A stretch of DNA of 64,000 bases from Zymoseptoria tritici IPO323 (taxonomy: Eukaryota > Ascomycota > Dothideomycetes > Mycosphaerellales > Mycosphaerellaceae). Positions 20,585 through 47,557 of the stretch are shown here, one piece after another. The translations under genes were made by a program, and so were the position numbers. Below the pieces are notes generated by a model. It searched no databases. It saw nothing but the letters and a program-made list of their open reading frames with translations, and was not told where the DNA came from. The stretch is from contig NC_018211.1 in the NCBI RefSeq assembly GCF_000219625.1, positions 248,001-312,000 of the forward strand. The letters are read 5' to 3'. Within the stretch, counting starts at the first letter, position 1. The number at the start of each line of letters is the position of its first letter.

Positions 20585-21749
20585 TATTGTGCTGCGTGGT
20601 GTTTCCAGTGCAGTTGTGAGTGGAGCGATGCGAGCTGAGTGGAGCTATGTATTCAGACTGAAGCGTTGTCTTCGGAGTGGAGCGAAAGTTTCCTGGCTGA
20701 GCAGACTATCCTAAGCGGATCTGTCGTGGAGCTGGTGAGATGTTGTTCGTTGTATGAACTCGGCTGAGCGGGGCTCTGGCATTAAAAGTCCCTCGGAGCA
20801 GCATTCGAAAAGGGGAAATGGCCTGATATTCGATTGGGGCCCTGGAAACTTTCTGCAGGCTTGAAGAATGCTATCGAAACCTGCAAGGGCATCGAGTTGT
20901 CGACTGCCGATTTATCGTATCACTCGGGAGTCAGCGCTAGTTGGCCATAGCCGTACCGTATTTCGAGGTCACAGCGGCTCCTTTGCGTGCTGAGACGACG
21001 GGCACGAGTCCATCACTGGCAGAAGAGCGTTCAAGGCAGAGACATATCGCTCGAGCAGAGCGCTGAGCGTCAGTGCATCGATGAGCGATCCAGAGGTGCA
21101 GAGTGATGAAGCTGAATGAACGATGTTGACACCCATCCCTTTTCATATGTCTTTTCCCTTTCTCCGATGTCTGTTTCGTTGTTACTTATCTCATCCTCAA
21201 CTCGCATGCACTTGAACTATGCATGGTGAACATTTCCAAAGGTCGGCGAGCAGATGACAATCATGCCGCTGAATTGCATGTGAGAACGCACTTTTCTCTT
21301 GCCGTCCCTGCTTCATTCACTCGTCTTCAGCTCCAACACTTACGTCAACGCCGCCTTTGACATCAGCATCGTTGCGACGCATTCTCAAGCACACACCACA
21401 ACATTTCTCCCTCAACAACATCCATCAACACCTCGCCACTCGAACGATTCGGTCACCCGTGCACATCGAACGAAAGCGCTGCCAACGCGCGCCATCTCTC
21501 CACACAAGCAGTACTCCGACCGCGCCTGGACTTCACTCGTCTTGAACACTTCACTCTATCTGGACCTTCGACCGAATTACGACAGCATTCCATCACACGT
21601 GGAAGCGGCGGTCGGATCTGGCTTCTTGGACTTGAGCTTCCGCGGTAAAAGGAGCAAGCAAACCTACATTCTGGGCGACGACTTCTTACTCAACTTTGAC
21701 ACAGCAGCACTTCTACCGGCATTTGGAGAACGCAACCGCGGCAGTCAAA
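20585..21749. other. Intergenic region and long 5' leader
   Basis: About 1.2 kb between the secreted protein gene (minus) and the H3-tail-like gene (plus). A plus-strand frame opens at 21299 and overlaps the next gene, but its residues have no family motif and inside the gene it is only a shadow of the heptad repeats. The last 300 bases are C/A-rich with short-leader character (CACACCACAACATTTCTCCC). No RNA gene seen. Confidence 0.4.
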
Positions 21750-24482
21750 ATGGCGAGGACCAAGCAATCACGTCGGAAGAACCTTGCGCGCGATGCAAAA
21801 CCTGCCGGAAAAGAAGCGGGAGCCGCAGGAAAACAGCGCCCGGATATCAAGGAGGACGAAGATGCGGAACCCAGCGAAGCCAGGGCGCCCACATACGCCC
21901 CCACAAGCCCTTCTTACAGTGCCACCAGTCCTTCGTACATTCCGCCCAGTCTCAGAGATGGGGACGGCGGTGCGCAGCCAGGCTTCAGCCTTACATCGCC
22001 GACATACAGTCCCACGAGTCCAGCGTACAGCTCCGCCATCATGCAGCCACCAACATACAGTCCTACCAGTCCAGTCTACAGTCCCACCAGTCCGAAACGA
22101 GACAGCCCTACATCGCCGGGATACAGTCCCGCGAGTCCAAATTACAGTCTCACCAGTCCGCGGCGAGATGGCTATACATCTCCTCAAGACTCCGCCATCA
22201 GCCCGGCATACAGACCCAGTCCTGCTAGCCCGCCGCTGAATCTCAGCTCTTTGTCGCCTCGATACGTTCCCACAGATTCAAACAAGCGAGCACTGGAAGG
22301 TGAAGACGAAGAGCCTGTGCGGAGAAAGCGTCGTACAGTTCACGGCGTGCGGAGTCCCGATGACGATTCCGAATCCGAGGAAACCGCGATCGTGACAGCA
22401 CTGCATTCGATGGACCAATCTTCGTCATCGTCTCGGCTCTCTACAAGTGACACCGCTCTCAATATCGTCAGCCTGGCAAGTCAGATTTCAGTTGGCACCG
22501 CGGCGCCCGTTCCTCCCAAGAAGAAGCACCTTCTGAAGTTGGCAGACAAATCGCAGCAGCAAGATGTAGAGTCGACGACAATGCTGGGAGAATCTGATGC
22601 GAAGCTTTTGAGCATGGCGTCTACAGACTTCATCAAGGCATTGCAGTCTCCAGCGGCCCGACTTGTGACCGTGGACCAAGCAGAACCGATGACAGCCGTG
22701 CATCCAGGAGAATCAATCGAACCGCTGCAGCAATCTACACCCACGGCGATTGACCACGTCCCTAACTCGCAAAGCAATGCTTCCACTGAGCAACAGCAAA
22801 TAGTTTCGGCAGAACCGATGCAGCCTGCGATGCTCGCTGAGGTGTCAAAGGAAGCTCAGTCCGTCGCGGCGGACAGCACTGCAGAAGCGCAAGGAACTCT
22901 CCCTGAGGATCAAGTAAAGCACACGATTTCCGGTCCCGCCGATGCCCTTCTTCAAACTGCCCAAGACTTTCGTGACTGGACAGGGTCCGATGTTTCGGAT
23001 GTAGTTGCACAGAATTACCTCTCTGCATCCAGCGGCAACCTACAGAAAGCTGTCCAAGCATACTTTCGGGCACCCAAACCCTCCGAGCCAGTGCGGGCAG
23101 AGCCTCCAGCTCAGATTGCAGCTGCCAGAGTCCCGACTCTGATCGAAGAGGCGCTGGCAGAGATGGCAAAGTCGAAGAAGGCACGCAAAGATATCGGAGA
23201 TGTATTGGTGATTCTCGACGGAGAAGATCTGAGCCGGAGCTGCCGCCTTTGGAGAGAAGATCTCAGGTCAGCATCTCCGCTATTCAGGCAAGGAATAGAC
23301 CGCATCGAAGCGCAAATGGAGACTGCCTCATCCGCCGCTTCCGAACCTGTCAACGGCGTGAGGTACCTTTGCATTCTCGCTAAGGCCTCTAATGAAGACG
23401 GGATGCCAACACTTGAAGGCAAGTTTCTCGACACAACACGACAGAATTGCAGAGACGAACTCTACACTCCGCCTGCCAAGTCGACCGAGACTCCTGCGAA
23501 CGCGGCACAGGTGGGGACTGAAGGCAACATCAAGAGCGAGACTGCAAAGCAGACGCCTGGCCCTCCTAGTACTTCGCTCGCAAGCACTGACTGGATCGAC
23601 ACTTATCGATCTTTCCTCCGCATCATCGCCCGCCACCCAGCGAATTTCCAGAATCGCTCCATCGAGGTTGCCCTCCCAAACATGGAAGCCATCGCACAGA
23701 TTGCCACGCAGCATTACGCCGTCGGTCCGAGGTCGCCTCTCACTGCTTTCTTCACCAATCTCTTCAATCGATACATCACCGAGGACGTGTTGTGGGCGGC
23801 AATCGCAGAAGCCCCGGCACGATGGCTACTGCTGGGTATCCAACTCGAAAATGAGACAGTGTACAAAGAGGCCTTTGTGCATCTGGTGGGCATCTCCCCT
23901 GCCTGCGAGAGCCTCGTTGACTGGAAGGCGCTCCCGCAGGAGGCCGTGGACAAGATCACTGCCAAGTCGAAGGAGCTCCACTACCATATAACCGACGTCA
24001 ACGCCAAGCTTCTGACATTGAGTCCGAACCCACGGGATGGACGACCGGCGGCCCTCGCGGCGAAGGCCATCTGGCATGAATGGCTGAAGACTAACATCCG
24101 ACTTCTGATATTCGGGCACATGGATGACTTACCGGTCTTGATCTCCTTCCTCACTCTCAGCAAGTTCTACACGGCCCTCCACAAGGGAGGAGATGCGTAC
24201 TTTCCCGCCAAGACCGCGAGGGAGTACAGGCAGAAGTACCATGTGTCTCCTCCCTTGAATGCGCAGGACACCAAGATCTTCAATGAGGTCTTCAGCGAGA
24301 TGAAGGACGAGGCGAAGGGGATTGTGGAGGACTTGGTCGTGTGCAATTTGCGAGGCGGGCGTGCGGGATTGGAGTATCTGACCTGTGTCAAGGTGGAGGA
24401 CGACGATGTGCCGTGGGAGAGGGAGATGAAGAAGGAAGGCGAGGGAGCTGGGTATGATGAGGACGATGATGTGGAGTTTTGA
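21750..24482 (+). CDS. Histone-H3-tail-like and RNAPII-CTD-like fungal BTB-type protein
   Basis: 910 residues. The first in-frame ATG is at 21750 in a strong context (AAAATGGCG); the frame upstream has only a TTG. After Met removal the N terminus reads ARTKQSRRK, identical to histone H3 at positions 1-5, 8 and 9. Residues 47-170 hold about ten heptads like YSPTSPx, as in the RNA polymerase II large-subunit tail. RRKRR at 191-195 is a likely nuclear signal. Residues about 395-440 resemble a UBA or TAP-C domain (DFRDWTG...[10 protein letters not shown]). From about 480, [18 protein letters not shown] begins a module common in fungal BTB-like proteins of unknown function, ending DVPWE. I infer a nuclear protein that could attract H3-tail or CTD enzymes. 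Catalytic motifs are absent. Confidence 0.75.
21888..22260 (+). repeat. CTD-like heptad coding repeats
   Basis: Imperfect 21-bp repeats of the type TACAGTCCCACCAGTCCA, encoding YSPTSPx heptads (residues 47-170 of the protein above). They are grouped in runs broken by spacers (for example SYIPPSLRD and SAIMQPP). Clear units include [21 protein letters not shown] (twice), [14 protein letters not shown] and NYSLTSP. Confidence 0.85.
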
Positions 24483-27831: not shown

Positions 27832-28219
27832 CTACTGTAGGTAGTCTAAGGGCCTAACTAGTGTTTTTTGGTAATAGAGTGTTAGCTTTATATGTAAATT
27901 ACACTAACATAGAGTGTTAGCACCTAAACGCGTCTGTACGACTAACGGCGACGACAGCATTACTAGGTATTAAATCTGAAAATCCGGCTTAGTTATCTAA
28001 TGCAGATTAACGTGCTCTACAACCTCCTGCTATTTGTTTTAACCTAACGCGTTAGACGAACGAAGAGTAGGCTTTCGCGTATCTTTAGTCTAACCGACGC
28101 GTTTGTATAGCGAGACGGTAATGCCTACTCCTCCTTTAGTTTTTATCTAATACTAACTAAAATTTGTCTATTAGATAGCTAGCCGTCCGCTCCCTAACTT
28201 AACTAAAGCCGATTTTAGG

Positions 28220-31200
28220 ATGCCGCGCTATAAATCTCGTCTTTCTAGGTTTAATTCTAACCTAACCCGATCTTTCGCGACGAGTACCTCGAGTAGCTTT
28301 GGCGCTAGCGAGTCCGGACAAGTTAGCAATGCGTTAGATAAGGCGACTAATAAGGAGGATCGATCGGACGAGTCGTTTTCGCGCATAGAAATTACTACTT
28401 TTGCTAGCGTACCTAAGCGCATTCGGGTAGTCGACGACGACGACGACGACGATAGTAATAGTCTATCTAACGTCCTAAGTAACTTCGATAATAGCGAGGA
28501 CCTCTAGGGTAGTCTGCAAAACCCTATAGAACCGTTAGTATTAGACATCGCCCTTTAGACGATTTTGTATAGGGGTAGTATAAAAGTATATTTTATTCGG
28601 CGGGAAGGATAGCTAGAGAAGATAGTATTAGCACTAACCGAAGAGATTCCGGTCGAAGAAGACGACGTATTAGTTAGGCGGCTACTAGAGCGGGTATTCT
28701 AGTCGGCGTAGAGGAATGCCTATAATATAGACGTAGTCGAAGCCGCTTAGGTCGGGGCCCCTAACGAATACTATATACCTTCTATTTCTCTACCTGCTAA
28801 TATGCTAGACTAGCTAGTTGCAATAGCGCGCCGCCGCGCGTTCGATAAGGTATACTACTAGATTAACTATACTATCGAAACGCCCGTACTTCTAGACGGA
28901 TAACAAGCTACAAGTATAGCAAAGTAGGTAAACATAACTAAGCGCGCGGTCCGTCTAATATATCCGTATTATACCCGAAAGCTACAAGTCCGTATGCTAC
29001 GGCACCTACTCTTCGAGAAGAAAGACCTAGTCTAGATTGCGGCTACCTCGGCGGGCAAGAGTCTAGTATATTAGTTATAGGCGCTAATACGGAAGAAGAT
29101 ATCGATCTTAGTACTTCTACTTAATTAGATTAGTAAGGAACAGCTCGAGAAGATCGAGTGTCTAAAGGGAAAACTGTTAGTATTAAACTCGAACACTAAG
29201 GCGGAGCTTACTAACTAGTAGTAGAAGCTACTATATTCCGGGAAGTATACCTACCTAATGTTATTTCCTAAGATAGCGATGCAGTTGTAGTTTATAAAAC
29301 TAATAGTTAAACCGGCGGTAAGGCAAAGGCTCGGCCTCTTTATATTAGACGAGTTCTACCTAGTTTACTAGTAGGGGATAGAGGGTAGAGGATTTTAGAA
29401 AGAATATACCTATCTAAAGAATCTTCGGTCTACCCTAACTAATCGTATTCGCTTCTTTAGTTGTTTAGCGACTCTCGAGCTAGATACCCTTGTTAAGTAT
29501 CGGACGGCCTCCGGCTTTTACGACGATATAGTTGTCGTACGGGATTCGATTAACTAATCTAAGATATCTATACGATATTGCGCTATTCTAGATAGTATAC
29601 TCGGGAACTATAAGATGCTTCGATATCTAACCGATCGCCTTACCGGAGCTAATAGCGTACCGAATCCCTAGTCGATTAAGAAAATAGTAGTATTTATCGA
29701 TAGTCGCTTAGGTATCTATACCGCGGCGTCTAGCCTCCGGTCCTACCTATATGCCTAATTCTCTAGAAGCCTAACGATTAACTAGATCTATACTATAGTA
29801 AGAACCTACTACGGTAGGACGGCTAGGCGAACGTAGGCGAATGTAATTAAGGAGTTCTAGAAACTAGACTCGAAGATCCGGATCCTGTTCGCGACTAAGG
29901 CTCTTAGTCTAGGCGTCGACCTACCTAACATTAAACGGGTCGTTTAATACCGCCTTCCGTAGAACGCTAGCATACGGACTATTATGTAGCGAGCCGGGCG
30001 CGCTATACGTAATAGTAAGCGGTAGGGCACCGGAACTTTTACCTTCCTTTACGACTAATAGATCGTAGGCCCCTAGTCGCCGGCCCGACTAAACTAGACT
30101 CGTATAGTCCCGGATAGATTCTTAAACTCGGAGTAGGAGAAAGAGGCTAGTAATCTCGCCGATGCGCTATCTAACGCTAGATTAGATACTAACGAGCCGG
30201 CGCCTATCGGACTACCGTCGGCGGTACGTAAGAAGCCGAGGGCGAAACTAGGTCCTTAGTAGAAGCGCGACAACATAAACTATTCCGTATAGGAGTTTAT
30301 AAACGCTAGACGTAATATAGATAGTCCAGTCGACTATCGTCGCGTCGCTACTTTAAAGCCCTTCGTAGAGCTACTGCCTAAAGGGCGTATCCGTAAGAAC
30401 TATTACGATATCTACGACTAGGATATAATATTACCTACCGACCGCTTTTCCGAATAGATTCCGTCTTCGGCGGACCTAGATGCCGCCTATACTAGACGCC
30501 CGTACGAGAAGACGATCCGCGAGGGTCTAAACAAATAGGAGCCTAGCGTAGCCAAATTGTATTATAAAAAGGTACTATTCCCTAGTATGCCCGGTTCTCT
30601 TCTACCTTAGACGGTAATTGCGCATCTTGCTTCTATATTCGGCTTGCCTAGTACGAAGGGAGACGTAATAGCTCGCTAGGTCGAGCTAGCCTATTCTGCC
30701 GTAGACTTCCGACCGTCTCCTAAGCTTATAATTATACTAGTTTCGAAGCTATTAGTATTACTTAAGCTAGCGCAATCGGTCGAGGCCTAGGAATTGTAGG
30801 AGAGTTAGGAACGCGTCGGGGCGTATTATATTTGTACGTAGAAGCGCTATCTAAGTCTCGAACTCTCTATAAGTCCTAAGCGATCTCCTAGGTCCGCTTC
30901 GGACGATATAAGGGCTGCTAGTAAGCTAGACTATAAGCTTGCCGCTTAGTCCGTCTATAGTCCTTACGCTAGTCTAGTACGAGAGCCTAGCCCTCTAGTC
31001 GGTAAGCCGCCTACGCCTATCCCTAAAAGGCTAAAGGTTATATAGGCGCAATCTAGTAGAGCCGTCCTCCCTCCTAATCGCGCGCCTAGCTCTTCCGTCC
31101 GCCGTCCTACCCTGCCGCCTAGAGCGCATTCCGGAGTTTCTACCAGCTATCGAAAGGCTACGCCTAAAGCATCCGATAATAGAGTTCGTTCGGACGGCCG

Positions 31201-31460
31201 TCGTTTCGGCACTATATTAAATCCGAACTAGATTCGGCTAGCTAGACGTCGGTTAGCTTCTCCGGTGCCGGCTACGGTATCGCCCGAACCGATAATCGTA
31301 ATAACGTCGCGCAGTCGGACGCGGGTAGCGAACGTAGTGCCCTAGAAGCATCGGTTTAGTTAGTAGGGTTTAGGTATCGATAGTGTCTATAAAGAGGTCG
31401 ACTAGTTAAAGATGTAGACTGTTTTACTAAGGATTTTAGATTTTAGCGTATTATAATAAT
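28220..31460 (+). pseudogene. RecQ-like helicase, RIP-inactivated
   Basis: The first 95 codons (28220-28507, MPRYKSRLSRFNS...) are still open. After that, TAG/TAA appear about every 15-30 codons, all explained as RIP products of Gln or Trp codons. Helicase motifs remain readable: motif I ATSAGKSLVY (29042-29071), motif II as DEF(H/Y)LVY followed by (QW)GIEGRGF (29348-29390), FIDSRLGI in the second RecA domain, motif V FATKALSLGVDLPNI, and motif VI (Q)RAGRAIRN near 29987-30010. This order and the QW after motif II are those of RecQ helicases. Telomere-linked RecQ genes are common in fungi, but here the gene sits inside a TIR element. The C-terminal third is basic and Pro/Ser/Arg-rich. The end is approximate. 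Confidence 0.7.
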
Positions 31461-31499
31461 AGCCCCGCTCGAGCCCTTAATATCGCCTCGTTATCTCTC

Positions 31500-34400
31500 T
31501 CTACTAGTATATTATCCTTATATATATGTCTATAGTTATAGAAGCCTCGACTCTAGCCGCCCAAAGGGAGCGTCCGTAGTGTAAACGCAAATTACCTAAG
31601 CCGGCGCCTCTAGTCCGAACGCCCTCCTAGTCGACGTCGAATACTAGCGGGTCTAGATCGAGTAAAAGTCGGGATGCTAGTGTCCGGAGACTAAGAAATT
31701 ATTACAGCGAAGGTAAGACGAAAAGAGAGAAGGTAGACCTCCTACTAGCCTAAATAAAGGAGTTAGGGATAACATTTAGGACCTTTGTAGAGCTGTATAT
31801 CTTATATAAGAAGGGCGCCTCGTCGTCTAATTAGGCAGAGACGGCAGCTACTAGGACTAAGAGGTTAGCTAGTCTGTTATAGAAAGATTAGATATATATA
31901 AGAGTATCTAAGTATATACCTCCCGGTAAGTAGATAAACATAGAAGTAGTGTGCAACGAACTAGAGATGTTACGGGGGCGCTAGGTAAGGAGGTCCGGTG
32001 TATATACGAACATATACTTACGTTTTTAGGAGTTCGGGCAGTAGGACTAAAAGATGCCCGCAGAAGATCTAGATTATAAGGGTGCGGTTTAGTCGATAGG
32101 AGAGTACATACCGTTAATACAGGCACTCTTTAAGGGGATATTAGGTCTGCTACGGAAGGCTGTCCTAGCTAATTACATAATTAGGCGCGTAGGTCTAGTT
32201 GCTAGCTTACTCGGACGGACATAGTATCCGCGATACTATAGTTAGTTCCTAAACTAGCTAGGATTATATCTCCAGAGCTAGGGCGTAAAGCGGCGGGTAA
32301 TCGCAGTGCTGTCCGGAATAGGTGTCTGCGCGTTACCGAAAAGCATATACCGCTACAATCGATAACTGCACTCCCTAGCGAAGGACCGTATTACCGGCTT
32401 TAGACGAGATTGCTATATACATAGTATCTACGATAACCTAGACATCTACTACAAAACCGGGGAGCATAGGCATAACCGTAAGGATAAACTAAAGCATGTT
32501 ACGACTAGCATAGTACTTAAAAGTATCGAGGTGCCGCAGACTAGTCTAAAGTGGGAGTATTTTCGTAAGGATAAGCCTCTTTAGCTCGTAGACGTACTCG
32601 AAGGAGACGGCAATCGATACGACGCTATCTAGAAACAAATCTTACGTAGCCTTATTACCTCGGCTATCGTTAGATTATATCCTAACGTAGTCGCGTATTA
32701 TTTAGGTGTCGATACTACTACCGATAACGATCCTCCGCGTCGCGGTAATCGAACAGGAGTGTCTAGCACTAACCCGGGCACTAGTAGGGAGACCGCTACA
32801 TATAATAAGCATAGAAAGAGCAAGATCGACTAGGATAATGTCGCTAGCTTCCCTACATTTCCTATAATCGACTAGCTAGAGAAGTAGAAAAGCATAACGT
32901 ACATATTAAATCTTATATTCGAACACGAGGGTACGACTAAAGGCATATATGCCGTAATCGAGAACATTCTCGAGCGCTAACTCGGATATAGAGACATATA
33001 TAACGAGTTCTTATAGCACTAAGACGCACAATCCTCGAAGGCTAGAGGGGATACTATTTATAACTACTAAGGCGCTACTAGTAGCTAGCAAATCTACTAC
33101 CGGAATCCTTATCCTGCCGCTAATAGCGACGCTACCTAAGACACAGAAGGTTATCCTATTAAACACTCCTAGCAACCCTATTAGTTATACCTAGCGACCT
33201 AGTCTACTATTTAACTATCCTAATAGTAGTATCCGGCAACCTAGTCTACTTTCTAGCTATCCTAATAGTAGTATCCGGCAACCTAGTCTACTTTCTAGCT
33301 ATCCTAATAGCAGTATCCGGCAACCTAGTCTACTTTTTAGCTATTTTAACAGTAGTATCCGGCGACCTAGTCGACTTTCTAGCTATCCTAGCAGCAATAT
33401 CCGGCAACCTAGTCTACTTTTTAGCTGTCTTAGAGTACGCCTATAACCTCCTAACTACTATATCCGGCGATATAGTCGACTTCTACGTCCGCCTAGAGCA
33501 CCCCTACGACTTCCTAATAGCTATCCGCGGCAACGAGTAGTAGTTTTCTATACGGCAGACGCAATTCGTCGGCCCTACGTAGTTATAGTATACCTAGCGG
33601 ACCCCTAAGGGCGCTTAGATAGTCGCCGGGTACAGTACTACACATTCTACGAACGCGGTTGCTAAGAGAGAAGCTAGAACACTATATATACAATCGGACG
33701 AATGTTATCTTCCTAATGTATAGCGACTAGTTATCGGTAAAGAACATCCGGATATACCTTAAGGAGGCTCGAGAGAACGACGACGTATTCGACAAGATAT
33801 AATAGATACTACCGTTACTAGGTTTGTTCTACCTAAAGATATACCTTATCTAGGCAATTAAGAATAACTTTAATAGGCAGGAAGGCTATACTACTAAATC
33901 TTTATTAATAGTCTATCGAGGACTAATAGAAAGGAAGATATGCCCCTTATTCTATATACCCTATAGCTACCTAGAGCGTCTAACCTTAGACAGTTTTAAT
34001 GCTAGAATACTCGCATTTATATACGAAGAGCTTAAGCTAGTCGTATATAGTCGGACAGCGATATCGACCTACATTCGCGCACTTACTCGCTAAGGGTTTA
34101 CTAGTCTAATAGACAAGGTCTACGAGAAGGCCTTCTCGTATAAGGCCTACTTATTAGATGCGGACTACCTAGAGGGAGACACTATTAAGGCAAAGAACTC
34201 GTATTTATTAAAGAGGCATTAGTCGAAGAAGGCTAGTACGACTAATAAGGCTACCGCTATAGCCGACGGTAACGAAGAGCGCAGGAATTACATCCGATTC
34301 CTTTATGTCGTCGAGACGTATTAGATACTATCGCGAGCCGTAAAGTATGCGGATATCGGACTACTCCGCCGGGTAATTAACTAATGTATCTTAATCTTCT

Positions 34401-35115
34401 ACGCTAGATTACACAAGAATTACGCATTTATTATGCTATAGATAAAGTAGTTAACGGACACTAAGACGTCTTATCCGATACTATAGCGGGCTATACTAGC
34501 TAACGGACTAGTAAACATAGCCGGTGCGGACGATAGTTAGTTCGAGATCGACAGGGCGAATAAGTTTCTTAACCGGTATCTAAAGACATTAATAGCTAGC
34601 TAGCGTAACAGCACGTTCGACGTCGAGAACTAACTAGAAGAAGCCGCGCTTTTAGCGACCTATACCGGCTACCTGCGAGAGGTTATCGAGGCTAGGTTCG
34701 GGGAGGTAACGAATACTAAGCATACCTTACTAAAGTTAGTCGAGGAGATATATATAGTTATAACGATTTGTTACTAGGAAACACTACTAACAAAGGCAGT
34801 CGATCTAGATGCGAATATAGTCCTCCCTTTTTACGCTATAGACTTGTATACTATAGGTGTTAAGAACCTAGTAACTAACGTAAAGGGTAGTAGTCGACTA
34901 GAGAGGTTTAATAAGAATGTAGTTATAAAGGACTCTTAGATTGTATAGGTAGACTAAGATCTAATCCTAGTAAATATAGAACTACCGGACCTAATAACGG
35001 ATCCTTACCTCCGCTGCATAGTAGCGACAGATATTACTCCTAGACTAATAAGGACGCCTTAGGATCCTAACAGCGAAGACGAGGCAGGTAATGTTTACTT
35101 CGATAGCGACTAACC
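31500..35115 (+). pseudogene. DUF6589-like protein, RIP-inactivated, possible transposase
   Basis: Read with TAG/TAA as Gln/Trp. An N-terminal part KVDLLLAQIKELGITFRTF (about 31735) is followed by IYDNLDIYYKTGEHRHNRKD...TTSIV (32420-32520), which matches the DNxxF...R...MTT region that I recognise in DUF6589 proteins of fungi. Further on, ILANGLVNIAGADDSWFEID and NKFLNRYLKTLIAS (about 34495-34600) match the family's C-terminal region, then KHTLLKLVEEIY. The frame ends EDEAGNVYFDSD near 35113. The 42-bp repeat array lies in the middle. DUF6589 has no proven activity; its regular occurrence in repeats suggests a transposase-type role, which is my inference. The family call is from memory of its motifs. 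Confidence 0.5.
33187..33438 (+). repeat. 42-bp tandem repeat, six copies
   Basis: Units start TATCCGGCAACCTAGTCTAC and recur at 33187, 33229, 33271, 33313, 33355 and 33397. In the frame with RIP-type stops each unit reads YPAT(Q)STF(Q)LS(QQQ), so the ancestral protein probably had a Gln/Ser/Thr/Pro-rich 14-residue repeat. Confidence 0.85.
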
Positions 35116-35589
35116 TTACTTGCTAACAGCTATGCTATTACCTGCCTCGCATATATATACGTTAGACGCCCTTAACATTATATTTAGGCACTTACTAACC
35201 GCCCTTTTAGGCATTAGCACGACTAATTTACGTGCAGACGCCCTTTACGAGACGTAGATTAGTTATGCACCTGTGTACGTACTACGTCGACGACGTTAAT
35301 TATACAGCTCGCAGAGGTAGCAAGACGCCTACTTCTACCCGACTTTAGTTACTAAACTTCCTTCCTTCTTTATTAACCTTCTTATACTATCTAATTGCCC
35401 TTCTGTCCCTTTATTAACTATTACTTTATCTATCCTTTACTACACTACTCGTTATACTACTTATCTATCTTCGCTAACTACCTTGCGCTTTCGACAGACG
35501 GAGAATCTCGTCGGCAGACTATATTTAAGCGTAAGTTTCGCTACGCCTACAAAGATAGAGATTTACTAATACGTAAATAGTTTTACTAT

Positions 35590-37160
35590 AGCACCTAGCG
35601 TACAGAAGAAGCTAGCCGACTAGGGTATCTCGGCGAAGGGTTAAGATATGCACGATATGTACGCCGAGTAGTTTTAGACGGAATAGTATAGCTAGGCAAA
35701 AGTTACGCTCTATAAGGGCAACATCGTTAAGTTCGTTTAAGGGCTTTACCGCGTAGTATATTAGAAATCCGGCTCGGTAATTAGGGACGTAAACAAGCGC
35801 GTAGGGCGCTAAGGGCGCATACATTCTAGTATTATAGAACTAGCAGACGATTCCCGAACTAGTCTATACGCGCTCGTATCTAGCAAGGAGATTCTAAGGC
35901 GCTTCGGCAATTAGATACGCACCTTCGTGCCTAGCACCTCCGCTACGAAGCTAGTAGCTATTCTAGCTACTTTCTAGATAGGCGGTGCTATTATGTCGGC
36001 TACTAAGACTTGTACGAAGTGCGGCCTAGCTAACGATCCGAATAGATTCGTAAACGACTATATCGTCTAGCTATACCCTATGTAGGAGAGGGCTAGGGAT
36101 AGAGAGTTCCTCTTCTTAGGTGCCTATACTAACTGCCTGCTTTATAGCAATTATAACAAGTGTAGTCTAGCTACGAAGTATACGAAGGAAGCGACGCCGG
36201 ACTATAAGGAGAGTAAGGAGGACGAAGAGACGGAGCGTCTTCCTAGCTTAGGAGACGCTTAAATAAAGATCTCCGACATGTTACTCTTTATAAGTATAGA
36301 GAATATCCCCGAGGTTGTAACGCACTATAGTAGCGGACGCGTCTTAGGCAAACATAAGAAGTATAGGTGCATTATAGTCCCGTTTAGATACGACGCTCGA
36401 TTCGACGCGGAAGAGTATACCGACTACCTAAAACCCGCTCTAAAGGAAGCGTAGGGAGAGGTTAACAAAGTAATTAACTAAGACTACTCCCGTCGCGACC
36501 TTCTAGATCTAGATAGTCCTCCGGTAACGATAGCGCCGCCTTCTATCTAGCTAAAGACGCCTATATATAATAGGCGTATAAGTACTCGTTTAATAGGCGC
36601 TCTATAATCGGACGTAGAGATAGCAGACGCGCCTAAGGTTATAGGTCGTAGGACAACTCGCCGTACGAGTAATAAAGTGCGCAAGGACAAGGCGTAGTTA
36701 GCGGACGAGATTAGGGAGGAGCGGGAGGAGGCTGCCCGCGAAGAGGCTAGAATAAGGTCCTCTCGGAAGGAGAGGCCGGCGAAGAAGTAGACGCCTAAGG
36801 ACACGCCTACGAAGTCCCGGCATAACGATCCGCATACTCTAATAGCTAACTCTACTAAGCGAAGTAGGAAGAAGTTATTTACCCTATTCGGATTCGACGT
36901 CTAGTAGGACAGCCCTTCTAGCGGAAGATACGTCTTAGAGGGCGGCGAACTAACCGGCATGTTCTTCTCGCCTAGATAGGTTAACCTAAGCCCGGGACGT
37001 AAGCGAAACGAAGGTTCGATTAACTTAGATAGACACGTCGTCCGAAGCATCTTTTCGTACTAGGACTAGAGTTACAGTAGCCGGATTCCTCCTAGCAGTA
37101 GGCTAAAGAAGTTAGACAGGCGTAGAGGCAAATAATTTAGAGGTAGCGAGCGCGAGCGTT
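35590..37160 (+). pseudogene. Zinc-cluster protein resembling DUF3716, RIP-inactivated
   Basis: A plus-strand frame interrupted only by RIP-type stops. At about 36003-36185 it reads CTKCGLANDPNRF...VNDYIV, then GA(C/Y)TNCLL and NKCSLATK, that is two CxxC-type pairs and a further Cys followed by SL. This resembles the Cys-rich domain DUF3716 seen in many fungal proteins of repeat-rich regions. The rest is charged: RREEREEA- and RSSRKERPAKK-like stretches near 36715-36790 and a basic C terminus. A DNA-binding or accessory role within the element is inference. Both ends are approximate because start codons are mutated. Confidence 0.45.
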
Positions 37161-37199
37161 AACTACATTTAACTAATTTTATAAGCATATTTGCAGCAC

Positions 37200-38260
37200 T
37201 TAGGTAAGATACGATACGAGCATTCTTTATAGCTTACCTGTCTCTAGGATAGCCCTATAGGTGTTAGCTTTAGTGTTTATTTCGCGAGTCCCTTTTAATA
37301 GTAAAGTGTATAGAACCTTTAGTACTGCTATTAGTTACTTACCTGTCGTTAGGATAGCCCTATAGGCGATAGCTCGAGCGTTTAGTTAAGTAGATTTTAA
37401 TTAAACCCTAAAAGCCTACTTATGTCTACTAGTTTCTTATTAAAAGTATTATATACCGTAACATAACCTAAGCTAGGCTACGACGACAACTTAGACATAT
37501 TAACCTTCGCCTAACAGCCGATAGTAAGGGGGACGGGCCTAATATAAAGAACCGGACTAAGGAGTCTAACATAGCCTTTAGCCTCGGCGTAGTAGAGCGC
37601 CCGGCTACCTATGTAGCCCGCATAGTAATATAGTAATAGCAGAACCGACATAATACTAGCTAAATAGTCCTCGGCTAGCAAAACTTATTAATAACCTCGC
37701 TAGGTTACTTAAGAAATAGAGCATCTAGATAGGCGCACGTTATCCGACGTAAGACTATTACCTAGAGCCTCTAACAACGCAGACTTAGTAGTAGAACGAC
37801 AAGTAGCAGAACGACAAGCAGCTAAACGGCAAGCAGCTAAACGGTAAGTAGCTAAACGGCAAGTAGCTAAAGTAGCATCGCCTAGAGCCCTAGGCTACAA
37901 TTAATAGGCGGAGCGGCACGTAGTACATAGGTAGTTAGGTAGAGCATTAGCTACGATATTTGCGACCGGCGGACTAATAGCCAAACTACATATTAGTCGG
38001 ATCGTCTGGCGAGATTATACAATAGCTAACATAGATTAAGGAAACAATCCGACATTACGTACGCGTAACACCCGCGCAGACCTATATATTTACTAGGTAA
38101 ACAAGACGACGACGCGAAGACAAAACAGACGCGACAGGGCGAAGCATTCATCTCTCGGACATTAATAACGTTTAAATATATCGCATTAACATTAATAACG
38201 ATCGCCTTCTACCGGTCTAGCCTAATTATCCTCTTCCGCATCTACTTATTAATTACTACC
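37200..38260. other. Non-coding interior of the element
   Basis: No long frame survives even when TAG/TAA are read through. It holds two copies of a block ending TAGGATAGCCCTATAGG (about 37226-37273 and 37333-37380), a 15-bp tandem array at 37795-37870, and two copies of CATTAATAACG near 38160-38205. These could be control or recombination sites of the element. Confidence 0.45.
37795..37870. repeat. 15-bp tandem repeat, five copies
   Basis: Units like AAACGGCAAGCAGCT, with RIP-type C/T and G/A variation among copies. Confidence 0.75.
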
Positions 38261-38269
38261 TATTTAGGT

Positions 38270-39010
38270 GCGTATCGAGCCTAACTAGTTGCTCGCAGCT
38301 ATTAATATCTAAAGATTAGTATGTGCTAGCAATACGAAGAGACTATCGAGCGCAATCCTCGCAAAGGAACTCTCTAGAGAGTGCGCTAGCGCGTCCGACG
38401 CTAGATAGAGGTACTACTATCGAGTACCTTCCTAGACTACGAGTACGATAACGCATACGAGATAGTAGCTCCTCGCCCTAGGGGAACATACGGCAGCCGC
38501 GCAGGCGTCGGCGACAGGCGCAGCGCCGTACTAGAAGACATCCGCAACCGAAACCCGCTATCCTACTACGCTACTATAGCGTAGCTAGTACGCGAGACTA
38601 CGAGCAGATACCTCGCGCCTAGGATTCCGTATTACGAACCGAAGCCTACGCATACTAGGAACATTTAGAAGAAGGCAGATACTATTTAGCTAGGCAGCTT
38701 AGTGTCGCAGAGGCCGGAGTATAGCGGAAATGCGCTAGACGGTAGTAGAGTTAGGTATAGAGAGAGACGAGAGCTAAGCGTTAGACGTTAGTTAGTTGCT
38801 GTACTACCGGCGGCTACTAGGCGTCGAGACCTAACCCCGAGTGCTAATATAAACGTCGCTTTAACCTCTTTAGGTCGCAGGTCTAGTATAGCTACCCGCG
38901 CTTAGTAGGAGGTAGAGGATAGAGCGGTTAGATAGTAGAAGAGGGAAGCCCTAATAGCACGCATAAACGCATAGGCTTAGTCGAGTACCCTACAGTATAA
39001 CTAAGTATAA
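38270..39010 (+). pseudogene. Unrecognised reading frame of the element, RIP-inactivated
   Basis: Between about 38270 and 39010 a plus-strand frame has only TAG-type stops. It reads TFLDYEYDNAYEIVAPRPRG, then SAVLEDIRNRNPLSYYATIA, APRIPYYEPKPTHTRNI and a basic region with RYRERRELSVRR. I do not recognise the family. It is close to the right terminal repeat. Confidence 0.35.
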
Positions 39011-39319
39011 GTTATATAATAGCTACCTTCGCCGGATAGGTACAGACGACTAGTAGCGCAAAGGCGGGTAGAGGTAGTATTACATAAAGGGAGGATATAA
39101 TACGTCTAGAGGTCTAGGAGCGGCTAGAGATTCCCTTTTAGGCGACTAAGGTGCGGCTATTACGATTAGGCGTAAACAAATTACATTAGATTAATTCTAC
39201 AAGTTATACGAATCGTTTGCGGGTATTAGACAGGCGTTTAGACTAATATACAAGTTTTCAGATTTTAGCTAACTCTCTATTACCTAGTTCGGCTGTTGCG
39301 CTCTTAGACTATACAGGAA

Positions 39320-39344
39320 GGCGCCCCCGAAGGGGATTAGCGCC
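39320..39344. repeat. Right subterminal hairpin
   Basis: GGCGC, CCCC, loop GAA, GGGG, a 4-base bulge ATTA, GCGCC. Read from the element's right end inward, the bulge is TAAT on the outer arm, the mirror of the left hairpin. Confidence 0.75.
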
Positions 39345-39354
39345 GCCAAGTATA

Positions 39355-39373
39355 GTCTGTGCGTCTGAGACTA
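39355..39373. repeat. Right terminal inverted repeat
   Basis: GTCTGTGCGTCTGAGACTA, the reverse complement of the left terminal repeat with one mismatch. Confidence 0.9.
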
Positions 39374-39382
39374 GGAGGGGGT
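39374..39382. repeat. Target-site duplication, right copy (9 bp)
   Basis: GGAGGGGGT, identical to 27764-27772. Confidence 0.85.
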
Positions 39383-39653
39383 CAAATGAGATCGCGGTCA
39401 CGGCTGCACGTGGACAACAATGAGTTGGCATGGCATTGGAAAAGCTTTTCGACCAGATTCACTTCACTTCAATTGCTGCTATTGTCCCTAAAAGGCAATA
39501 CGGTTCTCAAAGGCACACGATACACGCCATGCACTCATATGTCCGTGCTCAACCTAGCGTCAGTGAGGTCACCTCCTTCTCCAGGTATACACCCTCCTCG
39601 CGTCATCATCTTCCACCCTCCAGCTCCACCGCGGGAACAGCAGGCCCTCCAAA

Positions 39654-40679
39654 ATGACCACCCTCACACCCCTCCAATCCCGCTGGAAACATCTCTACCA
39701 CACCCACCTCCCCGCTCTAGCCAAAACCCGCGCCCCAGCCCAACCCACCTGGCCCGTCTATCTTGACCATTGTTTCGCTCGCATCGTTCTCGACAATGCT
39801 GTCGGAAAGGACAAACCTTGGACGGAAGTTGTCAAGGCGCCGGCGATTAAGAACATGACTGAGGCGCAGCTGGGGGATGCGATTCGGTTGGCGGAGGAGG
39901 TTGTTAGTGGTGAGGCGGATTTGGTGGAGTTGGATGAGAGGAGTTTGCGATTGAGGGGGAAGAAGGGGAAGAAGAGGAAGGGGAGTGTTGGGGAGGAGGG
40001 GGAGGGGAGGGGGAAGAAGGGGAAAGTGGAGGATGGCGAAACGGCTTCGGCGAGTCAGAAGGCAGCGATCAAGAAGGAAAGCAAAGTCGAAGACGAGGAA
40101 AAGCCTCCATCGAGTCTGAAGGAAAGCAAAGTAGAGGATGAGGAGAAACCACCAGCAACCAAGAAACCACGCCCATCGAAGAAGAATGAGACCATTTCCT
40201 CCTACTTCCTCCCCTCACCAACCTCGCCCTCCAAAAAAGACCCATCAAAACCCTCTCCCAAAACCTCAATCCCTCCCGCCGTATCGCGCCCGGAAACACA
40301 ATCCGACCTCGCCCACCACCTCCACCGCATCCAGTCCTCCTCCACCCTAACCCCCTTCCGCAAACAAACCCTCTCTCTCCTCCTCCAAATCCCGCCCGGC
40401 CAATACAGCACTTACGGCGCCCTCGCCGCCCACATCTCCGCCACCTCGCACAAGACCTGCGCGCGAGCGGTGGGTTCGAGTATGCGCAACAACCCTTTCG
40501 CGCCGGAGGTTCCGTGCCATCGCATCCTGGCGGGAGACGGGAGTTTGGGTGGTTTTGGAGGCGATTGGGGCGAGGAAGGGAGACATGCGGGGGAGAAGAG
40601 GAGGCTGTTGAGGGAGGAGGGGGTGAGGTTTGATGAGAAGGGAAAGGTGAAGGGGCCGGTTTTTCGGGATTTCAAATGA
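39654..40679 (+). CDS. MGMT-type DNA alkyltransferase with fungal N-terminal extension
   Basis: 341 residues in one exon. Residues about 238-341 are the DNA-binding/catalytic domain of O6-alkylguanine-DNA alkyltransferase: TPFRKQTLSLLLQIPPGQYSTYGALA, the helix with the arginine finger region ARAVGSSMRNNPF, then PCHR with acceptor Cys288. The enzyme repairs O6-alkylguanine by irreversible transfer to the cysteine. The usual N-terminal RNase-H-like half is missing. In its place are a conserved-looking fungal segment (about 8-105, WPVYLDHCFARIVLDNAVG) and a Lys/Glu/Pro-rich linker with a repeated KESKVEDEEKPP. Since PCHR is intact it should be active. The gene lies in a 1.5-kb island between two RIP-mutated transposons, 281 bases after one and 182 before the other, without premature stops. 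Confidence 0.85.
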   Translation: MTTLTPLQSRWKHLYHTHLPALAKTRAPAQPTWPVYLDHCFARIVLDNAVGKDKPWTEVVKAPAIKNMTEAQLGDAIRLAEEVVSGEADLVELDERSLRLRGKKGKKRKGSVGEEGEGRGKKGKVEDGETASASQKAAIKKESKVEDEEKPPSSLKESKVEDEEKPPATKKPRPSKKNETISSYFLPSPTSPSKKDPSKPSPKTSIPPAVSRPETQSDLAHHLHRIQSSSTLTPFRKQTLSLLLQIPPGQYSTYGALAAHISATSHKTCARAVGSSMRNNPFAPEVPCHRILAGDGSLGGFGGDWGEEGRHAGEKRRLLREEGVRFDEKGKVKGPVFRDFK

Positions 40680-40855
40680 ACAAAGTCCGATGACCTTGAT
40701 TCTGGATTCGAGAATCGCTACCTACTGTTGCTATGCTGACGCTCACCGGCACAAATGACATGGCGCCTCAACTTCAGTATGAGCAGAGCCGCATCTCGCC
40801 TGATCTCGCTCCGCTGCACTCCACGACTCGCTTTCTCGCGTATGCACTGCACGTT

Positions 40856-40860
40856 CATGC
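40856..40860. repeat. Copia target-site duplication, left copy (5 bp)
   Basis: CATGC immediately before the LTR. The second copy is at 47225-47229. Confidence 0.85.
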
Positions 40861-41031
40861 TGTTGTGATTGGACTTAAGCTGAGTGGAAGAAGACCTCTA
40901 ATTGGCAGGTATATATTGTTATGTAGAGAGAATCTTAAGTATGAGATTCTTACTTTAGCTATCTGTGTGTAGGAATGCCTTAGCACTAGTTACGTGCACT
41001 TTACTAATAGTTAGTCTAATAATCTACAACA
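40861..41031 (-). repeat. Copia LTR, left copy (3' LTR of the element)
   Basis: 171 bp. It differs from the right LTR at 13 positions, all transitions. On the minus strand a purine tract AATAGGGGAG (41041-41032) abuts it, as expected for the plus-strand primer. Confidence 0.93.
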
Positions 41032-42290
41032 CTCCCCTATTAGCAGCTGCATTATTACGAGCTGTCTGTTACCTAAATATAGCAGGTATTTACCTACTAC
41101 GTAGCTAATGCTCGGCTTTAGCTTGTTAAAAAGCATCTTCTTCTAGCTTTTTTATTCCTCTACTTTATAATCTACACCTCTTATCTATTTAGCTAATTTA
41201 TCCGCTAATCTATTATCTATCCCTTATAGCTATTAATAATATAATCTATATTACTAGCTATAGCTTCTAGAAGAAGAGTAGCTTTCTCTATCCCTAGGAA
41301 AACCTTCTAGCAAGTTATTAATAAAGTAAGAGCTATTAGTAGTAGAGATCTCCTATAGATCTACAAAGATAGTTCTATAGTATATTAGACTATGCATTAA
41401 CTTATTAAAGGAAAGATAAATAGATACTATAATAGAGTAAATGTTAGGGCTTAGGGTCCCTTCTTTTTTATAGCTTACTTTAATAGGTTTATAGCTAAGC
41501 TTAATAAGGATCTCCTTACTATAGACCTTATTAATATAGTAATAGAGGAGCTGTATAACTTAAGGGAGTAGGCCTTCCTAGTAGAAAACTACCCTAGTCT
41601 AATAACTCCTAATCCTTAGGGATTTGTATTATACTATAACTAGACTCCTCTTAACTAAATGTTAAGCTCTAATAAGGCAGAGATAAAGTAGTAGTTAGTA
41701 GCATAGTATCCTATATATGTTCTCCTTAAAATCCCTTCTTCCTTAATAGAAACTAATATTCTCCTAGGCTTTAAGTTAAGATTCTAGGGGAATTAGCTTA
41801 GTCTTTTAGTAGTAGTTTTAGGGGGGGTAGGCTATAAGTTCTAGGACATACTCTAATACTTTTAGGTTTTTATAGAAAAGTTTTCCTTTAGCTAGGTGTT
41901 TTTCTTATAGTTTCTTAGATGCTTTTGTAGAGGTGTGTAGTTGCCTCCTTTCCTTTATATAGATAAGAATAAAATAAGTATTCTAAGTATTATACTTCTT
42001 AGTTTTGTAATAAATAAAATAGTATAATTCTAGGGAGGGAATCCTTCTTAGGTAGGAATGCAGGTATTAAGGCATAAATTTAAGAGCAATTTCCCTCTTC
42101 TTATTAAGGGCTAGTTGGTCTAGTAGTATAATTTCTAATTTCTAACTATAAATTAGAAGGTTACAGGTTCAATTCCTGTATTAGCCTCTCTTATGTGTCT
42201 ATATTAGCTGCCTAACATAGACATATAAGTATCTTTTTGCTAGATTTATAGATCTATATATTAGAGGATAGTATTTAGGGATTTTAGTTT
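41032..42290 (-). other. Copia 3' region with a second RNase-H-like motif
   Basis: An unusually long stretch (about 1.26 kb) between the copia RNase H and the 3' LTR. On the minus strand near 41225-41180 a frame reads GIDNRLADKLAK, matching the GNExADxLAK motif of LINE-type or additional RNase H domains, then continues to the LTR. It may be an acquired second RNase H or a nested LINE scrap. RIP prevents a firm reading. Confidence 0.35.
42109..42187 (+). tRNA. tRNA-like sequence, degraded
   Basis: The sequence can fold with acceptor arms GGCTAGT and ATTAGCC, a D-arm TGGTCTAGTAGTATAAT that fits the A box, and a T-arm with a perfect B box GGTTCAATTCC between ACAG and CTGT. The anticodon arm has stem TTCTAA/TTAGAA but a 14-base loop, about seven too many, so either a tiny intron or a changed loop is present. 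The body most resembles tRNA-Pro. If the extra bases are an intron the anticodon might read TCT. It lies inside the copia element, antisense to its genes, and carries RIP-type changes. Function is doubtful. Confidence 0.45.
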
Positions 42291-45200
42291 TGTTAGACAG
42301 TCTGCAAGCTGCATATCTGTCCTTATAAACTCTACCTTAATACTCCCCTTGTTATATTGTTCTCTGTAGTAATAGTTCCTAAGAGAGATATGTCTTAATC
42401 TTTTAGAGTTAGCATAGTTTTCTATAAGGCTAATAGCTAATTAATTGTCTACTTTAATAAGGATAGTAGAAATGCTTTTAGCCTAGGTAAAGGGCTAGAG
42501 CTTATTAATAAGATTCCTTACCTAATTTACTTCTCTTATTGCCTTAGTAAGAGAGAGGTACTCTGCCTTAGTGCTAGATAGTACTACTTCTTTCTATAGT
42601 TAAGATCTCTAGATAACTAGGCCTCCTACAATTTTAAAGAGCATTCCTAAGGTAGACCTAGATATGCTAGGATTACTAGCAAAGTTAGAGTCTAAGAATG
42701 CTTTAATCTAAATTTGCTCCTTAGTTTTCCTGTATATAAGGCACTTGTTAATTATGCCTGCAACATATCTCTAGATATGTTTAGCTGCCTAAATATGCAA
42801 AGGTCCTAGGTTCTAAAGGAACCTTATATAGTAGTTAATAGCAAAACTAATATCTAGTCTAGTATAGTTTAACAGATGTTGTAGTTCCCTAATAATCTTA
42901 TTAAAGAGATTATAGTCCTTCTTTGTTCCCTTATCCTAGAGGGGTTTAAGGAGGGTATTAAGGGGGTACTTAACACTCTTTGTATTGCTAAGACTATGTT
43001 CTTAAAGTTTGTCTCTAAAATAGTATTCCTAAGAGACAGACATAGAGCTATCTTTCCCTTCCTTTAGGTAAAGTCTAAGAAAGATATTAGTATTAATAAC
43101 CTTAATTATATACTTCTGCTCTAATCCCTTAATTAGCTTGTTAATCTTATAGTCTAACTATCTAAAGATCTAGAAGTTATCTATATAAAGGAGAATAAGG
43201 ATGCCTTTCCCTTAAAAGAGGCAAGTATCGCTAATAGTTCTTATTAGACTAAGCTTTTAAAGAGTGTCTATAGCATTATAGTGCTAGAGAGCAGCTACCT
43301 GCTTAAGCCTATATAGTCCTTTCTTAATATATATAATATACTTGTAGGCATCTTTCTTAAAGAGATAAGCTCCCTCTAGTAGCTTAATAAAGATCTGCTT
43401 ATCTAGGTTTAGATTTAGGAATGTAGTCTTAATATTAACTTGTCTCCTCTTCTAGCTAAAGTTAACTAAGAGGGACAGAAGTATTCTCCCTATTATAGCT
43501 CTTAGGGTAGGAGCAAAGGTATTAATATAGTTAAGTCCCTTCCTTTATGTAAATCCCCTAGCTATCTATCTAGCCTTGTACTTCTCTACAGTTCTATCTA
43601 GGAGCACCTTAATCTTAAAGACTTATTTCCCTATAAGAGGGACTCTCCCCTTAGGGAGAGTGCTAATAAGTTTCTATTTAAGGCATCCTATAGACTTAAG
43701 TAACTTAGCTTCCTTAATAATAGCTTTCTCCTATTCCTTATAGTTAGATCTAGAGAGAGCTTCCTTAACTATTTTAGGATTAGACAGATTAAGATTTGTT
43801 ACTTTAAGTCCTATCTTCTAAATCTTACTATAGTCTTTTCTTATAACTAATCTTCTACTTCTTAAGAGTCTAAATGTGCCTAAGCTTTTAGGACTTACTT
43901 TATTACCTAATTTCTTAAGTCTTTTAGGGCTTCTCCTTACTTTCCTCTTTCTTGTAATATAAATGTCTAGGAAGGGAGTTATAGTATAATCTTAAAGGTC
44001 TTCCCTTTTAGGGTAATTCTCTACTAATGCTTAATATTATAGCTATGTTAATAAGGCATTAGCCTACTCCTAGAATCCTTTAGGACTTCCTTAGAATCCC
44101 TTAGGACTTCCTGTTTCCTTAGAAATATGCTCCCCTTAAGCTAGCTAGGAGGCTTCTTTATACTTAGTAGCCTCTAGCTAATTAGGCTTAAACTACTTAT
44201 GTTAGTTATCCTAGGACTATATATCCTAACCTAATGTTTGCTCCTCCTAAGATGTTAAAAGGGAGGCTTAGTTTCTCTTTCTTTATATAGTATTAAATAT
44301 GTTCTCTACTTCTTAAAGATAAGAAGTAGTAAGAGGTTAGGCATCTTGCCCTTAGGCATCCTAGCCCTAATCTTAATCCTTAGTGTAGATAGTATAGACT
44401 TCCTGTTCTATAGTAATAGATTGTATTAGTTATAGGAAACTCTCCCCCTAGAAGTCTAGGGTAGTAGGTATTACGCTATATACCTCGTCCTTATTATATG
44501 TTATATAAGGAGAGGTTACAATCTTGTGCTAAAACCTAGTAAGGGCAGATAGTTTAAACTTCTAAACTATATAGTTAGTTAAAGTGTTCTCCTAGAATCC
44601 TAGATTCTAGTATTTCTCTGCTCTAGGATAGAACTTCTATAAATTAGGTCTCCCCTAATTATACAGATATGCTCTATATCTAAATCTCCTAACCTTTGTT
44701 AGATTAATATATAGAGTTCTAGTATTAAGATCTTAATTAAATTCCTAAAGAGGAATCTTATTAGTTAATAAGCATACTAGCCTGTTAGTAAGGAAGATTG
44801 CATATATAACTGCAAAACTCTAGAGAGGGAGAGGTAGGCTAGAGTTAATTATTATTGCTCTTGCCTTGTTAAGGATAACCTTATTAGATAATTCTGTAAT
44901 TCTATTCTACTTAGGAGTATAAGGAGCTAAGAAATCCTATCTTAGTCCCTTATTCTCTATAAATGTAATTAGATTATTATTATTAAACTCTCCTCCTCTA
45001 TCTAAGAACTAGATCTTAACTATCTTTTTGTACTAGTTAAATATCTTAGTAGTCTATTTCTTAATAATTTGTGCAGCTTGTAATTTAAACTTGCAGAAGA
45101 TAGCTTATCTCCTTTTTAACTTTGTATTAGTAATTATAAGGATGTACTTGCATCTAAAGATATCTAGTAGAAAGATTAGTCCTATAATATTAATATAGAC

Positions 45201-47039: not shown

Positions 47040-47053
47040 CCGGGCTTATAACC
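47040..47053 (-). other. Copia primer-binding site (half tRNA-iMet type)
   Basis: Directly after the 5' LTR the minus strand reads GGTTATAAGCCCGG. Allowing one RIP change (G to A) this is the complement of CCGGGCTCATAACC, the anticodon arm of initiator tRNA-Met, as in copia elements primed by a cleaved half tRNA. Confidence 0.6.
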
Positions 47054-47224
47054 TGTTATAATTAGACTTAAGCTAAGTAGAAGAAGACCTTTAATTAGCA
47101 GGTATATATTATTATGTAGAGAGAATCTTAAGTGTAAGATTCTTACTTTAGCTATCTGTGTGTAGGAATGCCTTAGCACTAGTTACGTGCACTTTACTAA
47201 TAGTCAGTCTAATGATCCACAACA
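47054..47224 (-). repeat. Copia LTR, right copy (5' LTR of the element)
   Basis: 171 bp, TGTTATAATT...GATCCACAACA on the plus strand. It is followed by the CATGC duplication (47225-47229). Confidence 0.93.
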
Positions 47225-47229
47225 CATGC

Positions 47230-47557
47230 AGCACCCTGGTCCGATTAGGCTGACATGCATCTGATGGGTTTCGACTTATGCCACCCCACGCTTCCACAGT
47301 CTGCCTTTTGGCGATCTTGCTGCTGCGAGTCGCTGCGTCGCTGATTGGCCAATTTGTCGCAAGACGTGGTGGGAAAGCTTGCCGGAGCTTGGTGTCATGT
47401 GCTCTCCTCGCTTGGGTCTTCCACACGCTGGCCAATGTACCGCTGTACATGAATTGTACCAGCAGGTTCCGACTGGCGTCGTCCACGTCGGAAATCGAAG
47501 AGATTCTCAGAGTTGGATTTCACATCATCGCCTCGATTCAGTCATCCGCATTTGCTC
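47230..47557. other. Flank between copia and the monooxygenase
   Basis: About 330 bases with normal composition, the 3' flank of the minus-strand monooxygenase. No feature seen; RIP does not extend into it visibly. Confidence 0.4.

Follow-up and report, generated by a model that had tools for sequence, protein, structure and literature searches.

The RPB1 CTD (Pfam PF05001) carries consensus YSPTSP heptads, including contiguous pairs, and RPB1-type heptads serve both as substrates of CTD kinases and as ligands of CTD-binding domains. According to the accessible part of PMC7195483, COMPASS associates with the Ser5-phosphorylated (Ser5P) CTD, with the Set1 N-terminus and Swd2 being of importance; the recruitment that the initial annotation of the locus described below had taken as known is in print as such an association. 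A structure of COMPASS on a nucleosome shows the H3 tail inside the active site of Set1 as far as R8, as given in the accessible text of PMC7039682.

H3-tail-like N-terminal peptides also occur on non-histone proteins, a described example being the SNAG factors. These proteins carry zinc fingers, and the SNAG sequence is not ARTKQ. Within what is accessible of PMC12612597, SNAG factors such as Snail1 and GFI1 have a short H3-like N-terminal peptide that recruits LSD1. Here, we describe a predicted protein of the wheat-pathogenic fungus Zymoseptoria tritici IPO323 that can be compared with each of these systems, and discuss how its parts might work together.

The locus and its start codon

The window, i.e. 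the whole stretch of 64,000 nt that was analysed (G000:C8:248001-312000), contains an intronless open reading frame (ORF) of 910 amino acids at the locus of interest. Upstream of this gene lie ORC2 and an adaptor-complex medium subunit, and downstream an HPP membrane protein, followed further on by an E2 enzyme and a proteasomal ATPase. The features of the gene, in window positions, are as follows:

21281..21749, plus strand: stretch without ATG in any frame, by composition C-rich in its upstream part; probable 5′ UTR
21750..24482, plus strand: intronless ORF of the protein described here
21753..21779, plus strand: H3-like N-terminal tip ARTKQSRRK (H3: ARTKQTARK)
21894..22163, plus strand: CTD-type heptad block, residues 49-138
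22215-22232, plus strand: weak further heptad unit, residues 156-161
22320..22334, plus strand: basic cluster RRKRR, residues 191-195, read from the sequence as a candidate nuclear localisation signal
22962..23069, plus strand: UBA-like domain, residues 405-440 (PF14555 UBA_4, E=1.1e-6, over cut-off)
23196..23294, plus strand: residues 483-515, where a degenerate BTB-like fold might begin (below threshold only)
23340..24026, plus strand: residues 531-759, a region in common with a distant paralogue encoded on contig C1 (25% identity)

Two further observations concern the surroundings. A low-GC island extends from about 28001 to 48000 (0.315-0.492 per 2 kb vs 0.527-0.570 around it) and probably consists of repeats. 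On the plus strand, the ORFs 49903-52365 (HET-NACHT) and 52362-54479 (WD40-repeat) lie in different frames, with the TGA of the first overlapping the ATG of the second; together, they look like one split NLR-like HET-NACHT-WD40 gene.

The frame of the ORF is closed upstream by an in-frame stop at 21633-21635, after which 38 codons, none of them ATG, lead up to 21750. The last ATG in any frame before this position is at 21278, leaving approximately 470 nt without one. In a first-order Markov model of these 469 nt, a mean of 2.8 ATGs is obtained, with zero in 5.8% of the runs, and seven ATG-free runs in the window, all of them within the low-GC island, exceed the one preceding the gene. The ATG-free stretch thus gives weak support for a start at 21750. 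The sequence also has an A at -3 relative to this ATG.

If the gene model were wrong, translation would begin elsewhere or a coding exon would lie further upstream, so that MARTKQ would be internal or would fall outside the reading frame. The initial annotation had named such an exon as a finding that would refute its reading. Single-intron joins were enumerated with ATGs from position 21120 onwards, introns of 40-400 nt and HAG acceptors. Four joins keep the ORF frame open upstream, which speaks for a longer protein; however, the three that pass the donor filter all end in an AAG acceptor, and none has a CTNAY branch site at a distance of 8-60 nt from it. Within these limits, no convincing model for a coding exon upstream of 21750 was found. 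The codon usage gives some further encouragement to a wrong gene model: a small codon score, trained on five stretches of which one is the 3′ part of the ORF itself, favours the ORF frame only from about 21700 on, and further upstream scores another frame as coding-like. This open frame (21284-22228, plus strand, 314 codons) is shifted by +2 relative to the gene and overlaps its 5′ end. From 21284 to 21750, it is free of ATG. Pfam gives no match over cut-off (the best being DPC2, with 17 bits against 70), the PDB gives none, and the genome contains no second copy; the upstream region is therefore taken as a C-rich 5′ UTR. Altogether, the ATG at 21750, which the initial annotation had proposed as the first in-frame ATG, is likely, although not proven, to be the true start.

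Heptads of the RNA polymerase tail type

The initial annotation counted about ten YSPTSP-type heptads behind the tip, and this number is borne out: against YSPTSP, three units are exact, eight have at least 5/6 matches and ten at least 4/6. In 5000 shuffles of residues 46-165, the maxima are one, three and five, respectively, showing that the heptad repeat is certainly real and clearly above chance. Most units retain Y1, S2, T4, S5 and P6, and contiguous pairs are present. The Pfam RPB1 repeat PF05001 is matched in three stretches with 21.4 bits against a cut-off of 20.3, and a PDB search with the protein returns RPB1 chains at E values down to 7.5e-25.

Despite this likeness, the protein differs from RPB1 in several respects. 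Polymerase domains are absent among its Pfam matches at E<=1, its roughly ten heptads are diverged and located in the N-terminal part, and its serine codon use is different. The codon AGT encodes 14 of the 27 serines in the heptad block. Outside the block, the gene uses it for 5 of 67 serines (Fisher p 6e-6), and the RPB1 CTD for 4 of 57 (Fisher p 9e-6). Between the heptad block and the RPB1 CTD, the best local DNA match extends over about 30 nt. The serine codon use points to local growth of the heptads by amplification from one founder unit, and together with the lack of long DNA similarity it argues against a recent capture from RPB1. The array does not appear to be fresh either, as Tandem Repeats Finder (minimum score 30) detects no DNA array at the heptads.

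A protein search of the genome at E<=0.001 recovers, apart from the gene itself, the C1 paralogue and the RPB1 CTD on contig C4, the latter by two matches that overlap, and nothing else. With the repeat model run over the genome, 25 matches are obtained at E<=10, of which only those in RPB1 and the window ORF exceed the cut-off singly; three weaker matches, of which C7 has two and C3 one, reach it only together with their neighbours.

A tip resembling histone H3

Like H3 and CenH3, the protein would have ARTKQ at its expected mature N-terminus. Once Met is removed, residues 1-5, 8 and 9, i.e. seven of the first ten, are identical to the spliced H3 of the same genome, confirming what the initial annotation had stated, and R8-K9 stand as in H3. 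At positions 6 and 7, S-R takes the place of the T-A of H3, the change of T6 to S being conservative. The extended H3 tail ARTKQTARKSTGGKAPRK is not reproduced, position 15 being the only match among residues 10-21. In a PDB search with the first 20 residues, no sequence, and hence no histone, is found at E<=10, and no histone family that would indicate an H3 histone fold behind the tip is among the Pfam matches of the protein at E<=1. The tip covers most of the H3 stretch seen in the Set1 active site, with the exception of residues 6 and 7, when compared with the tail resolved to R8 in the accessible text of PMC7039682.

The frequency of the motif was determined in the genome (39,686,251 bases in 21 contigs), counting sites where it is uninterrupted. 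MARTKQ occurs at four sites and the reversed pattern at none, against an expectation of about 0.6 per genome by plain arithmetic with equal base frequencies. The four sites belong to histone H3, CenH3, an AAA+ ATPase and the window gene, and all are plausible gene starts; H3 and CenH3 were recognised by reading the histone-fold sequence in the following exon, not by profile search. Leaving the second residue free gives nine sites vs seven for the reversed control, and the five additional ones (one with Ser for Arg) are not gene-start-like and look like chance occurrences. The scrambled controls MATRKQ, MAKTRQ and MARKTQ give 0, 1 and 0 sites, the single one lying in a frame of 31 codons.

How often a protein might start in this manner by chance can be estimated from a shorter motif. 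A pattern covering MARTK or MASTK has 32 sites vs 11 for its reversed control; 30 of the 32 were inspected, 23 of these with Arg. Among them, a long ORF without an upstream Met (L031) starts with MARTKK and has no H3 character, and a shorter ORF with an upstream Met (L037) may start with MARTKN. The resulting count of MARTK gene starts is a lower bound, as short frames may be first exons, which is the case in H3. ARTK starts without H3 character therefore number about one to two per genome, perhaps more. Gln generally accounts for 4-5% of residues, and we infer 0.05-0.1 chance ARTKQ gene starts per genome, perhaps 0.2, before R8-K9 are counted. The R8-K9 match lowers this figure, but was spotted after the fact. 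Given this estimate, the tip is suggestive rather than proven: it probably, though not certainly, goes beyond chance, which leaves room for coincidence.

An AAA+ ATPase with a longer H3 tail

The clearest H3-tail graft that we recognise in this genome, more convincing in this respect than the window gene, is an AAA+ ATPase on contig C12 (G000:C12:1258393; L022:1494-3624). This predicted protein of 690 amino acids, a length that assumes the removal of a single short predicted intron, opens with a histone H3 tail of 20 residues, MARTKQTARKATGGRAPRRGL. Both it and the window protein are non-histones beginning with MARTKQ. They differ in that 16 of 21 residues of the ATPase tail equal H3 and in that the ATPase matches the Pfam families DUF7025, AAA and the fungal AAA lid AAA_lid_13, without the RPB1 repeat. 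Relative to H3, the tail has K14R, K18R and S10A. Of its 16 shared residues, 11 use a different codon, so that the similarity is one at the protein level, either old or convergent. The 30 residues after Met match 136 PDB sequences at E<=10, with an H3 peptide as the best hit (E 7.2e-6); the best 60 of the 136 are H3s, H3 variants, H3 peptides or an H3 fusion by name, including two peptides named by H3-like sequence alone. Related ATPases are encoded on C10, C1, C2 and C7, and an uninterrupted MARTKQ is found only in the C12 copy. It is chiefly this ATPase that makes the H3 tip of the window gene worth taking seriously.

The CenH3 gene (G000:C8:835954-835971, minus strand, L003) keeps ARTKQ and diverges from residue 6 on, MARTKQISRGGRQSTGGK. 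In the accessible part of PMC4589918, IPO323 has 21 chromosomes, with Zt09_chr8_00234, by its name located on chromosome 8, as the putative CenH3 gene. Among the titles and abstract beginnings listed from open-access literature, we find neither an H3-tailed AAA+ ATPase nor a protein with both tails described, which is weak evidence of absence.

The remainder of the protein

The UBA_4 family (PF14555), found in other fungal proteins, is matched over its cut-off by the window protein as well (28.7 bits against 21.8). The UBA-like module of the initial annotation thereby stands, whereas its BTB-like module finds no match above threshold. PF00651 (BTB) gives no match at E<=1 in the window protein (P0001) or in P0004. 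The distant paralogue on C1 (P0002) reaches 12.8 bits against 20.5 (E=0.14), below cut-off, and a PDB match to 6guv obtained with a two-sequence profile has E=1.6, again below threshold. As all profile and PDB searches stay under threshold, a BTB fold is not assigned. NCBIfam yields nothing in the window protein or this paralogue, and a single-sequence AlphaFold2 prediction of residues 381-910 (mean pLDDT 37) is too poor for use.

The C1 paralogue has its C-terminal region in common with the window protein, while heptads, the RPB1 repeat and the UBA match are absent from the C1 ORF, and no MARTKQ site is present there. With neither tail in its ORF, the paralogue was dismissed as their source. 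The C1 ORF in turn matches an ORF on C3 (G000:C3:3306545-3307006, L058), and a reverse match leads back to the window protein. In viral and prokaryotic contigs, 3 and 46 pattern matches were obtained, none of which was confirmed, and no relatives of the window protein were found there, as expected for a fungal gene.

How the protein might act

The reading that we favour, tentatively and at somewhat less than even probability, is that of a nuclear scaffold or competitor, in which a CTD-like docking array is combined with a UBA-like domain and the H3 tip is a minor second ligand. The N-terminal part is likely disordered, judging by its composition. Here, the heptad array would stand exposed before the UBA-like domain, followed by the C-terminal region common to the distant paralogue. 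CTD kinases may phosphorylate the heptads, which could then dock CTD-binding factors such as CID, WW or Set1/Swd2-type modules. The UBA-like domain may bind ubiquitin or a ubiquitinated partner; the protein, as a scaffold or competitor, would thereby link partners carrying ubiquitin with the transcription machinery. A nuclear location is probable, and RRKRR would be the corresponding nuclear localisation signal. The H3-like tip could serve modules that read A1-R2-T3-K4, for which Met removal would have to expose it, as in H3. The CTD-like array appears to be the best-supported part of this mechanism. What counts against it is that a Ser/Pro/Tyr-rich stretch can gain function-free repeats by slippage.

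This leads to an alternative that we consider somewhat unlikely, namely that the two resemblances combine coincidence and low complexity, with ARTKQ being one of many basic N-termini and the heptads being slippage products without a CTD-like role. The heptads mainly use one serine codon, as expected from slippage; starts of the MARTK type that lack H3 character are present elsewhere in the genome (L031, perhaps L037); and the initial annotation picked the motif after sight of it. However, a fresh slippage array would be at odds with the Tandem Repeats Finder result, most units still hold the five conserved heptad positions, and each of the four MARTKQ sites is plausible as a gene start, the three besides the window gene belonging to H3-tail proteins.

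The dual mimicry suggested by the initial annotation goes further than the scaffold or competitor that we favour, and we consider it unlikely. The free N-terminal ARTKQ would be read or methylated like H3K4 and the heptads would dock the same machinery, so that, towards COMPASS and H3K4 readers, the protein would serve as a decoy, scaffold or self-modified regulator. The identity of ARTKQ, the conservative change at residue 6 and the retained R8-K9 fit this proposal. Likewise, all four MARTKQ sites look like gene starts while the five with another second residue do not, the three scrambled orders are nearly absent from the genome, and the much longer graft on the ATPase demonstrates that H3-tail sequence on a non-histone occurs in this genome. 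The association of COMPASS with the Ser5P CTD, as far as the accessible part of PMC7195483 describes it, would bring both tails to one machinery. On the other hand, only five residues are contiguous, identity almost ceases past K9, the 20-residue query finds no histone, and an ARTKQ gene start may arise by chance at the rate estimated above. Of this interpretation, the two resemblances stand, the start is likely and the CTD half is well grounded; its BTB part does not stand, and its H3 half comes down to five plus two residues. Action of COMPASS or an H3K4 reader on the protein would be possible by analogy. The protein and the SNAG factors (accessible part of PMC12612597) share an H3-tail-like N-terminal peptide on a non-histone, which in the present case is a likeness of sequence.

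A broader speculation, improbable in each of its parts, is that detached H3 tails are recurrently used in this fungus as a docking device on non-histones, in a long form on the AAA+ ATPase and in a short form on the window protein. On this reading, the replacement of K14 and K18 by Arg would remove two acetylatable sites from the ATPase tail and leave the methylatable K4 and K9 in place. The window protein, as a soluble double mimic of the nucleosome tail and the polymerase tail, might then titrate COMPASS-type machinery or bridge it, which we hold to be just as unlikely. Finally, a wrong gene model is very improbable in view of the ATG-free stretch and the failed upstream extensions.

Implications

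Judged by its sequence, the joining of polymerase-tail repeats to an H3-like tip on one uncharacterised protein is an unusual combination. How transcription factors distinguish a substrate from its copy is directly at stake where CTD heptads occur apart from RPB1, or H3 tails apart from histones. A single protein bearing the two tails would offer a natural way to ask if an untethered substrate is able to divert COMPASS and CTD readers. Through its 20-residue H3 tail, the AAA+ ATPase makes fungal H3-tail grafting testable with existing H3K4me and H3K9me antibodies; by the same token, such antibodies may detect non-histone bands.
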